From positions 1 through 64,000 of the forward strand of contig JAEUGW010000054.1 of the NCBI GenBank assembly GCA_016795565.1: a DNA stretch of 64,000 nt, given 5' to 3'. Below, one piece after another: positions 3,866 to 36,480 of the stretch. A program made the translations under genes and the position numbers. The notes under the pieces were generated by a model. The model was not told the origin of the DNA. It searched no databases and saw nothing but the letters and a program-made list of their open reading frames with translations. Source of the stretch: Opitutaceae bacterium (lineage in GTDB: Bacteria > Verrucomicrobiota > Verrucomicrobiia > Opitutales > Opitutaceae). Position 1 is the stretch's first letter. Each line of letters opens with the position of its first letter.

Positions 3866-3875
3866 CCCAAGCGCC

Positions 3876-4244
3876 GTCATTCTGAGCGCAGCGAAGAATC
3901 CATCACCATGCCCGCCAGCCCAGCTCATCGCCGCTATTGGGTATATATTCTGGCCAGCAAACCCAGCGGCACACTCTACATTGGAGCAACCAATTCGTTG
4001 AAGCGACGAATCTGGGAGCACAAGACGGGTGCAATTGCCGGTTTCACGAAGCAGTATTCAGTCAAAACTCTTGTTTATCTTGAGTCCCATCGAAATGTCA
4101 CTGACGCCATTCAGCGCGAAAAGGCGCTCAAAGGTTGGCTTCGCGCCAGGAAGGTCGATCTGATCCGACAGGAGAATCCGCTTTGGCAGGATTTGGCTGC
4201 CGACTGGTATCAGCTTCCGATGGATTCGCTGCGCTCAGAATGAC
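3876..4244 (+). mobile_element. Putative GIY-YIG-encoding form of the family A inverted-repeat element
   Basis: The left arm (3876-3902) is identical to that of the other family A copies. The right arm (4221-4244) is its inverse with a 3-bp deletion. Between them lies not a 20-41 bp loop but a 318-bp interior filled by a GIY-YIG endonuclease gene, whose last seven codons and stop are made from the right arm. This is the layout expected of an autonomous parent of the short copies. That it moves is an inference; no target-site duplication was established. Confidence 0.55.
3908..4243 (+). CDS. Small GIY-YIG endonuclease
   Basis: A 111-residue single-domain protein with the GIY-YIG fold: the VYI strand near residue 12, YIG near residue 24, the arginine-rich helix LKRRIWEHKTG, and AIQREKALKGW, whose glutamate is the likely metal ligand. 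It resembles the stand-alone GIY-YIG (UPF0213/SLX1-like) nucleases. The C-terminal MDSLRSE is encoded by the right inverted-repeat arm. The gene interrupts the bufB-bufC spacer, in the same orientation as the operon, and has no obvious role in bufferin synthesis. Cleavage specificity is unknown; it may cut at or near the repeats, as homing nucleases do. Confidence 0.85.
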   Translation: MPASPAHRRYWVYILASKPSGTLYIGATNSLKRRIWEHKTGAIAGFTKQYSVKTLVYLESHRNVTDAIQREKALKGWLRARKVDLIRQENPLWQDLAADWYQLPMDSLRSE

Positions 4245-4255
4245 AGAATCGGGAA

Positions 4256-5219: not shown

Positions 5220-5293
5220 GTCATTCTGAGCGTAGCGAAGAATCCAGAGGAACGCGGGAGTCCTGATGGATCCTTCGTTGTGCTCAGGATGAC
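5220..5293. repeat. Family A inverted-repeat element, short diverged form
   Basis: Arms at 5220-5246 and 5267-5293 match the other family A copies with a few substitutions (cgtagcg for cgcagcg; ggatcc and tgtgct in the right arm), separated by a 20-bp loop. It sits in the bufC-bufD spacer, so each of the operon's three spacers has one copy. Confidence 0.85.
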
Positions 5294-5343
5294 ACATCGG
5301 CGGAAACGCAGGAATAATCCCCGCGGCCATTCCTCCCACCGCC

Positions 5344-24065: not shown

Positions 24066-24086
24066 GGCCTGCTTCAAATTCGGTTT

Positions 24087-24181
24087 GTCATTCTGAGCGC
24101 AGCGAAGAATCCATCGGGATTTACGTTGCGCAGCAGTGGGAGCGATGATCCGACTGGATTCTTCGCTCCGCTCAGAATGAC
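24087..24181. repeat. Family A inverted-repeat element between fadJ-like and E1-E2 genes
   Basis: 27-bp arms at 24087-24113 and 24155-24181 with a 41-bp loop. The left arm is identical to the bufferin-operon copies and the right arm differs by one base. It occupies most of the proximal part of the 260-bp spacer 24066-24325, which holds no gene. Confidence 0.9.
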
Positions 24182-24325
24182 AGGATTCGGGAGTTCCGAG
24201 AATTTGGAGGCGCGCTCGCCAGAGCCCCGCCTCGGCCAAAGGGTGTAAAGCCGGGGCCGGCCTGCCCCCGGCTGATAAATGCGTTGCAGGCCACGCTTTT
24301 TGGCGGGAAATTTTGGCAACCTCCC

Positions 24326-27300
24326 ATGGCCACCGCCGTCACCCTGAACCAAGAGCAGAAGCGCCACTTGTTGCTGACGATGCTGGAGAGCCGGCACGGC
24401 GACCTGCGCGAGGAGAGCCTGAACCGGCAGGGCAAGGGGCATTTCCACGTCTCCGGCCGCGGCCACGAGGCGCTGGCCGCCATCGGCGCGCAGCTGCGCG
24501 ACACGGACTACATCGTGCCGTATTACCGCGACCGCGGCCTGTGCATGGGTCGCGGCCTGACCACGCGCTACCTGGCGCTGGAGTATTTCGCCAAGCGCGA
24601 CTCCGCCTCCCGCGGCCGCATGATGCCGTCGCACTACTGCTCGCGCGAACACAACATCGTCAGCGTGCCGACGCCGACGGCCTCACAGCTCATGCCGGCC
24701 TGCGGCATCGCCTGGGGCCTGCAACTCGACCAGAGGGACGGCGTGGTCGTCACCACGATCGGCGACGCCGCCTCGCGCCAGGGTGATTTCTACGAGGCGC
24801 TCAGCTTCGCGCAGGAGAAGAAGCTCCCGCTGCTGCTGCTGGTCGAGGACAACGGCTACGGCATCTCGACGCCCACCAAGGCCAGCAACCCGCTCGCCCT
24901 CGGGATCATCAACCCGGCCCAGTGGCGTATCATTGACGGCCGCGACCCCGAGGCCGTCCACGCCGCCGCGCAGCAGGCGCTCGCCGACCTGCGGGCGGGC
25001 CGGGGCCCGGTGTTCTTCTGGGTGAAGGTCGAGCGCCTCTCCAGCCACACCAGCTCCGACGACCATGCGCTCTACCGCTCAAAGGAGGACCTTGCCGCGC
25101 TGGAGCAGGCCGATCCCATCCGCCACCTGAAGGACCGGATGATCCAGCACGGCGAGCTGACCGAGAAGGACTACGCCGCGCTCGACGCCGAGCTGAAGGA
25201 AAAGGTGCGCCGCGACTACGCCGCCGCCGAGGCCGCCGAGAACCCGCGGGCGGACGAGCTCTACGTCGAGACGACGGGGCCGTCGCCCGAGCTCAACGAG
25301 GAGCTCTTCAAGCCGGGCAAATACCGGATGGGCGACCTCATCAACCGCACGCTCCGCGCCGGGCTCGACGCCGACCCGGGCCGCCTCATCTTCGGCGAGG
25401 ACGTCGAGGATCCCAAGGGCGGCGTGTTCCGGCTCACCCAGAAGCTCACGGTGGATTTTCCTGGCCAGGTGTTCAACTCGCCGCTGGCCGAGTCCACCAT
25501 CATCGGCCTGGCCGGTGGCCTCGCGCTCTACGGGCGCCGGCCGGTGTTCGAGATCCAGTTCATCGACTTCATTTATCCCGGATTCAACCAGCTTGTCGCA
25601 AACCTCGCCAACCTCCGCTGGCGCACGAACGGCGAGTGGAAGGTGCCGGCCGTGTTCTACGCGCCCTACGGCGCCTACCTGCCCGGCGGCGGCCTCTGGC
25701 ACTCGCAGGCCAACGAGTCGGTCTTCGCCCATTTTCCCGGCATCAACATCGTCATCCCGAGCACGCCGGAGGACGCCGCCGGCCTCCTCTGGACCGCGAT
25801 GCACGCGGAGGACATCACGCTGGTGCTCCTGCCGAAGCACATGCTCTGGGCCGAGCGCGAGAGCGCGGGCCCGGTCGCCTCCATCCCGCTGGGCGTCGCC
25901 CGGCGCTGTCTGGAGGGCGACGACCTCACCCTCGTGGCCTGGGGCAACACGATGGAGAAGTCCCTCGAGGCTATCGCCGAGTTGAAGGGCGAGGTCGGCG
26001 TGGACCTGATCGACCTCCGCTCCATCGTCCCCTGGGACAAGGCCACGATCGAGGCCTCCGTGCGCAAGACGGGCCGCCTCGTCATCGTGCAGGAAGACAC
26101 GGAGAACTGCTCCGTCGGCCAGATGATCATCACGCACATCATGAGCCAGCCCGACCTGTGGGCCGCGCTGAAGGCCCCGCCGGTGCTCGTGTCGAAGGGC
26201 AACGTGATGATCGGCTACAACCCCATCTACGAATACGCCGCGCTGCCCGACGTGCCGCGCATCCTCGACGCCATCTGGCGGACGGTGTCCATCAACGTCG
26301 CGCGCGGCGAACATGTGGGAGCGAGCTTGCTCGCGACTGCATCCGCCCAACCCGTCGCGACCAAGGTCGCTCCCACAAACGAAAGCCACGCCCCGCGGAA
26401 CACGCTGGTCGCCGGCACGAGCGACATCATTGTCCGCGTGCCGATCATGGGCGAGGGCCTGCGCTCGGCGCGCGTGGTGGCGCTCAACAAAAGGCCCGGC
26501 GACGCCGTGAAGCACGACGACGTGCTCTGCGAGGTCGAGACCGACAAGGCCGTTTATCCGATCGAGGCTTCGTTCGCGGGCATCTTCAAGGCCTGGCAGA
26601 TCAAGGTGGATGACACCGTGCTCATCGGCCAGGAGATCGCGCTCGTCACCGGCGATGCGGCCAGCACGAAGGGCCTCGCGACGGAAGGGGCCCCTGGCGG
26701 AGGGGCTTTGCGCCCCGATTCATCGCGGGATAAACCCGCTCCTACAATTCCTGTCGCCGCCAAATCCGCGCCCGCGATGCCCGCCATTTCCTCAACTCCC
26801 GTTCCCATGAAAGGCAACGCCCGCCCGCCCGCTTTGCATCCGGCCATCACCAAGCGCCTGGATACGGTCATCCCCGCCAACATGCTGATGGACGTCCGCT
26901 GGGATGCGCTCCGCGCCGCGCGCGAGGCCGCCAAGCAGCAGCACGGCAAGGCCGCCGCTTCGCCCTCCACCATGATCGCGTGGTGTGTCGTCCGCGCGCA
27001 GGAGAAGCACGCGGCCTTCCGCTGCATCGTGAACAAGGACGGCACCATCCTCGAGCAGGCCGACTTCGAGCTCGGCGTCGCCGTCGCCCTGGAGGGTGAC
27101 CGGCTCGCCACGGCACCCGTGGTCAACGCCAACAAGCTGGCCTGGGCGGATTTCGTCGCCGCCTACAACCGCGCGGTCGAGGACACGCGCATCGGCAAGA
27201 TCACCGAGGTGCAGGCCCCGGTGAACCTGACCAGCCTCGGCGCGTTCGGCGTCGAGAGCGCCACGCCGATCGTGGTGCCGCCCGCCATGGGCACGCTGTT

Positions 27301-36401: not shown

Positions 36402-36480
36402 GTAATCGTTCTCGTTCTCTTACTCGTAATCATTCTCCCGGCTTGAGAACGAGAAAGATTACGAGAACGAGAAAGAGTTA
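36402..36480. repeat. Imperfect inverted repeat rich in gtaatc/ctcgttctc, prpC-prpD spacer
   Basis: Left half carries taatcgttctcgttctc and right half its imperfect inverse (gagaacgagaaag, ctcgttctcgtaat on the other strand). The 79 bp fill the whole prpC-prpD spacer and are much more AT-rich than their surroundings. It may form a cruciform or an mRNA hairpin between the two genes. Confidence 0.8.

Follow-up and report, generated by a model that had tools for sequence, protein, structure and literature searches.

A gene for a small GIY-YIG nuclease in an Opitutaceae genome lies between two tagged hairpins of a dispersed repeat, and statistical comparison across bacterial genomes shows that the nuclease and its repeats form a cognate pair. 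The unit comprises 370 bp, at positions 3876 to 4245 of the window (the whole 64,000-nucleotide stretch of DNA that was analysed). It is probably a REP-type element, in which two outward-tagged, CGTC-class hairpins surround their own nuclease gene. This best explanation is graded as a whole, and includes recognition and nicking of the hairpins by the enzyme and its service in trans to short, gene-free doublets. The GIY-YIG enzyme is a candidate for a repeat class whose defining paper saw no dedicated transposase, and the class of its arms is predictable from one amino acid.

The element and its repeats in a single genome

The window comes from contig C27 of a draft genome of 3.52 Mb. The genes flanking the nuclease gene belong to the BufB (PF05114) and BufC (PF09836) families. 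The left arm, the REP hairpin GTCATTCTGAGCGCAGCGAAGAATCCA, occupies positions 3876–3902 of the forward strand and, with the C at 3875, carries a literal CGTC tag that faces outward. It is followed on the same strand by an open reading frame of 111 amino acids (3908–4243) that matches PF01541 (E 7e-16). The right arm, GGATTCGCTGCGCTCAGAATGACA, is inverted (4222–4245, reverse strand); at 4222–4244 it reads GGATTC-GCTGCGCTCAGAATGAC, and the triplet TTC of the full arm is absent. This arm supplies the final codons and stop of the reading frame (M-D-S-L-R-S-E-stop). A preliminary description of the sequence had reported a complete GIY-YIG reading frame between the arms, which stands with a small correction for the missing triplet. 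It had also placed four family A pairs in the window, and all four are where it put them: the pair at 3876/4244 that encloses the reading frame, and short doublets at 2805–2899 (REPIN-like, with 28-bp perfect arms and a 39 bp loop), 5220–5294 (with a 20 bp loop and a diverged right arm) and 24086–24182 (of the 95-bp size class). Elsewhere in the window, an inverted repeat at 26314–26377, GTGGGAGCGAGCTTGCTCGCGAC, represents another REP-like doublet type, which is also found at the argA site of a related genome (G154, L219), and a repetitive GAGAACGAGAAAG tract at 36406–36477 includes inverted copies.

The arm matches 175 positions in the genome at up to three mismatches, and a reversed control pattern matches none, so the repeat is not a product of chance. 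The tag is GTC preceded by C or T. All 28 close pairs of neighbouring arms are inverted doublets of the same orientation, with spacing peaks at 57 and 67–70 bp. Each arm is also a hairpin in its own right, with compensated base pairs, a feature that the preliminary description had overlooked. This makes the arms REPs and the short copies doublets of REPs. Family A arms consist of 5 bp, two G.A mismatches and 2 bp around a 3-nt GNA loop, while perfect-stem arms have stems of 8–9 bp. Among 61 arms from the loci retrieved in this genome, double changes preserve the stem pairs: the third pair is T-A, C-G or G-C (43, 14 and 2 arms) and the eighth is G-C or A-T (51 and 10). The two G.A mismatches are nearly invariant (60/61 and 61/61), and 60 of the 61 arms have the GNA loop. 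When one family A arm was folded as a single strand under standard parameters, the result was not significant, and the case for a family A hairpin consequently rests on this covariation. A DNA mini-hairpin of unusual stability is built around the core GC-GNA-GC, with a melting temperature of 78 °C for GCGAAGC (PMC4686876).

The genome holds two further copies of the gene. One, on contig C49, encodes a protein 78% identical to that of the window; both arms recur there at unchanged offsets, and the right arm is likewise short of TTC. Nucleotide homology between the two copies runs exactly from 3876 to 4245 and ends there, which suggests that the element moved as one unit, arm to arm. Their ends are identical over 27–29 bp, synonymous sites differ at 66%, and dN/dS is 0.09. 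It follows that the protein is under selection, and that the arms have diverged less than silent positions. Doublets of a different arm type (GTCATTGCGAGGAGC...GCAATCC) surround a third, 51% identical copy on contig C20. An autonomous element with MITE-like derivatives, as first proposed, is plausible and unproven: short and long copies share their arms, but the short copies retain no trace of coding sequence, and a target duplication could not be resolved.

Pairing of nuclease and arm class

Relatives within the bacterial family at 47% identity or more were designated class 1, and more distant, UPF0213-like GIY-YIG genes class 2. Arms of type A or B flank 14 of the 15 class 1 genes in the family (the exception is L053). 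In contrast, class 2 genes are not flanked in this way, and tagged hairpins occur on both sides of none of 31 other GIY-YIG genes and none of 31 RAYT genes. The gene is sporadic, being detected in 28 of 388 genomes of the phylum at E 1e-15, with class 2 included. Three class 2 genes (L056–L058) lie downstream of another palindrome, of the GAATGCCCTGAGC...CGAAGGGCTTTCG type, and two of them are near apparent tRNA ends.

The association extends well beyond the family. In a sample of 80 class 1 genes from unrelated genomes of many phyla, 54 have inverted repeats across the gene that reach a score of 20, compared with 23 of 324 shifted controls. Tagged hairpins lie on both sides of 50 of the 80 genes (43 with outward tags), against 2 of 432 nearby shifted windows, and Fisher tests on flanking-hairpin enrichment gave 1e-45 and 1e-10. 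Hairpins were scored by five pairs plus a tail C, a rule that replaced an earlier one (at least 7 of 8 bases paired) by which G.A-mismatched arms were missed. Arm sequences vary by element (GTCATTCCCGCG..., GTCATCCTGAGCG..., GTCATTGCCGGGCTTGACCCGGCAATCC); arms agree at 90% within one element and at 63% between elements of different phyla. Neither pattern that would have marked the association as chance in the preliminary description, genes of this type lacking arms elsewhere or arms beside the gene in this genome only, was found. Its analogy with RAYTs and REPs gains strong support, as does the gene–arm association itself, and the RAYTs of the same genomes lack these arms. Among phage-borne relatives (L254–L256, L259–L263 and L266–L273), no tagged hairpins were detected nearby, and the protein is of the Trp type described below wherever its motif is readable. 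These armless relatives may act differently.

The arms resemble a repeat class that is already described. Di Nocera et al. (2013) defined CGTC-tagged REPs, which include Neisseria dRS3, by a CGTC, TGTC or CCTC tag, a stem of 8–9 bp that starts with AT, a loop of 4–5 nt and a CCA tail; these repeats are apparently without a dedicated transposase, and no RAYT was flanked by them (PMC3733652). At least five phyla are known to contain such repeats. The arms studied here likewise have a C/TGTC tag, an AT-started stem and a CCA-type tail, and they occur in high copy number, mostly as inverted dimers. In four CGTC-positive species of the 2013 study, a class 1 gene lies among CGTC repeats. Within 1.5 kb of that of N. 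gonorrhoeae, six dRS3 copies lie upstream and five downstream (the paper itself names the Neisseriae; PMC3733652), and that of A. lipoferum is situated among CGTC-class repeats. Judged by eye from the flanks, the repeats have a CCTC-like tag in S. meliloti, and a CGTC tag with a GC-started stem in N. aromaticivorans. The gonococcal gene (L319, 1501–1755) has no annotated feature in its record. A search of the open-access literature (subscription papers and preprints lay outside it) found no publication that connects GIY-YIG genes with such repeats.

The protein belongs to the GIY-YIG nuclease superfamily, as its domain and catalytic residues indicate (Y13, Y24, R34, E71 and N90, conserved over 72 sequences), and is predicted to cut DNA. 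Fold and profile comparisons place it nearest to UPF0213 proteins (1zg2) and Slx1 structure-specific nucleases, and its likeness to homing-type nucleases, suggested at the outset, is not borne out in detail. In the AlphaFold model (pLDDT 88), residue 81 sits inside the last helix (79–89), at position X of the motif K-x-x-W-x-R-x-X-K.

This residue is matched to the class of arm. Lys or Arg at position 81 accompanies G.A-mismatched arms at 48 of 48 loci and Trp or Tyr accompanies perfect-stem arms at 27 of 27 (75 loci in all), a count in which ambiguous GCGAGG arms were scored as the G.A type and the GWNRAWK group, with 6-bp stems, as perfect-stem, and before which L002, L181 and L153 were assigned by hand and L173 was left out. 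Residue 81 carries 0.94 of the 0.97 bits of information on arm class, and the next best column 0.54. When all columns are used, protein and arm are weakly correlated across phyla (rho -0.13, p 0.004), the signal being concentrated in residue 81. The rule is concordant in all six phyla with both types (Bacteroidota, Ignavibacteria, Patescibacteria, ‘Deltaproteobacteria’, Cloacimonadota and Beta/Gammaproteobacteria), and host ancestry therefore does not explain the match. Proteins with GSR-K/R-K pair with GCGAG arms, those of Hymenobacter and Thiobacillus included. In hold-out sets, the rule was kept in 10 of 10 cases on viral contigs, at every locus in Verrucomicrobiota outside the family where both motif and arms could be read, and at all nine loci with detected arms in plasmid-collection records. 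The window protein has Arg at this position, within K-G-W-x-R-x-[K/R]-K, which predicts its G.A-mismatched arms. Since the protein tree is weakly resolved, with six joint residue/arm changes on the best tree and one forced by supported branches, the switch at this residue may have arisen independently only a few times.

Proposed movement of the element and alternative explanations

It is fairly likely, if a little less so than the element as defined above, that the nuclease moves the repeats. With its last helix (residue 81 and its neighbours), the enzyme would recognise the hairpin into which arms of its own class fold, and would most likely nick next to that hairpin. Once nicked, the unit would be copied or moved from arm to arm with help from the host, probably while its DNA is single-stranded during replication, and host repair would seal the break. 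The short doublets would be the same unit minus the gene, served in trans at dozens of other sites. Binding, nicking and the step from nicking to movement are proposed; what the genomes display directly is the specific pairing of enzyme and hairpin across phyla, the conservation of the protein, the covariation of the hairpins, and site differences between relatives. A GIY-YIG enzyme should cleave DNA by hydrolysis and not ligate it; chemistry of this kind cannot by itself rejoin DNA, and this was counted against nuclease-driven movement.

At the bufB–bufC junction, the gene is present in this genome only, four relatives (G157, G037, G150 and G162) carry a short family A doublet, and five (G156, G155, G093, G161 and G113) have neither. 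The relatives compared at this junction thus reveal three states: empty, short arm pair and GIY-YIG-carrying. Such a series could also arise by homing, with doublets being moved first by something else and the nuclease then cutting doublets of its own class, so that its gene is copied in by recombination via the arms. The identity of the arms in two copies whose synonymous sites are near saturation fits this reading too. However, at the argA-like site, five species have the gene, three genomes have a bare junction (G000, G151 and G155), others have unrelated repeats, and no short family A doublet was found in the relatives examined. Arms of 25 bp are also short for efficient recombination, and the spread of the doublets would be left unexplained. 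Homing is unlikely.

Other sites vary too. The sufB–sufC insertion of A. lipoferum is missing from Azospirillum relatives with 90–96% identical flanks, and the fnrL site of Sphingobium is occupied, empty or filled by one double-tagged palindrome. In strains TomTYG74 and TomTYG64 (L335 and L336), this palindrome joins the outer halves of both arms (CGTCACCCCGGGTCAAGCCCGGGGTGACG in TomTYG64) and resembles an excision or deletion scar. In one genome (G501; L308 and L310–L312), seven copies of a GIY-YIG element are nested in a larger unit that is itself multi-copy and bounded by separate terminal repeats (GGTTCTTCCGG...AGCGTGGGATTT). These copies were apparently multiplied by another transposase, and because they sit inside the larger unit they were set aside as proof of self-movement.

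Arm numbers follow the enzyme in part. Across 150 genomes, the six with an A-type enzyme have 3–175 family A arms, and 102 of the 144 others have none; type B follows the same trend, and counts are higher where the matching enzyme is present (p 3e-6 and 4e-7). Eleven genomes of the family have at least 20 family A arms and no A-type enzyme. Arms can therefore persist, or spread, without a resident copy, and strict dependence on a resident enzyme is unsupported. Many family A arms, and no matching GIY-YIG gene, were found in G096, G141, G139, G043, G059, G147, G015 and G028; in the stretches of G096 that were read, other arm pairs hold short doublets only.

The arm-rich genomes without the gene would suit a cognate nuclease that does not mobilise anything. 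An Slx1-like enzyme could process REP hairpins or cruciforms, for instance in replication protection or regulation, while the repeats spread otherwise and the gene is kept beside its substrate. The closest folds and the strong purifying selection also favour such a role, but a gene that is sporadic, occurs at different sites and travels with its arms is unlike a housekeeping nuclease. This role appears no more probable than homing. Mobilisation by the nuclease, as part of the best explanation, has in turn to be weighed against these 11 genomes, the armless state of most phage-borne relatives, the lack of any double-tagged excision scar of the Sphingobium form for family A in 16 arm-rich genomes, and the lack of a definable target-site duplication, intergenic sequence being too diverged. 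No new insertion event was caught.

It is very unlikely that the repeats are REPs moved by RAYTs and that the nuclease plays no part in how they spread. All 19 arm-rich genomes tested have RAYT genes, as does this one, but family A or B arms were found around none of 35 RAYT loci, the RAYTs of this genome adjoin other palindromes, and the same was reported for CGTC repeats (PMC3733652). As RAYT flanks lack these arms, RAYTs were rejected as their source. Least credible is chance or hitchhiking, with the nuclease a passenger in the repeat clusters that are common in intergenic DNA, as the G501 unit rides in a larger repeat, for this is contradicted by the local controls, the other GIY-YIG genes and the residue/arm match.

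More generally, the balance tips slightly towards the whole CGTC super-family, Neisseria dRS3 included, having GIY-YIG nucleases as its dedicated mobilisers, in a hairpin-guided system with a one-residue specificity switch that relies on a hydrolytic nuclease in place of an HUH, DDE, serine or tyrosine enzyme. If the enzyme does move the repeats, mobility by a GIY-YIG nuclease would be new except in introns and retroelements, and the mechanism categorically so; small, swappable enzyme–hairpin pairs could then become tools.

Comparison with known systems

CGTC-tagged REPs share their tag, AT-started stem, CCA tail and inverted dimers with the arms described here, and perfect-stem arms match that class. 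The G.A-mismatched, GNA-loop arms form a further structural class beside it. The difference is that the 2013 paper reports no dedicated enzyme for CGTC-tagged REPs, among them Neisseria dRS3 and Rickettsia RPE-4/6. Small UPF0213/YhbQ-like proteins and Slx1 have the same single small GIY-YIG domain and provide the best fold and profile matches, but the UPF0213-like relatives examined (class 2) lack flanking tagged hairpins.

GIY-YIG homing endonucleases and Penelope elements also tie this type of nuclease to mobility. Here, however, there is no intron, intein or reverse transcriptase, and no separate DNA-binding domain or single fixed site; the protein is a single domain of about 100 amino acids (111 in the window) and its arms are intergenic and dispersed over many sites. 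MITEs and their parent insertion sequences similarly combine short gene-free copies with a longer gene-bearing one. The element differs from these in having no known transposase and in ending in REP hairpins; its exact ends are visible, and intergenic sequence is too diverged to define a target duplication.

The closest parallel is with RAYT transposases and their GTAG REPs or REPINs, which also comprise short tagged hairpins in many copies, mostly as inverted doublets, along with a dedicated nuclease gene that lies between repeats of its own type, and that come in several types per genome. The enzyme here is a GIY-YIG nuclease (PF01541) rather than a Y1/HUH protein (PF01797), and the tag is (C/T)GTC with a CCA tail rather than GTAG. 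The system works like RAYT/REP systems but, given these differences in enzyme class and tag, is not a member of them.
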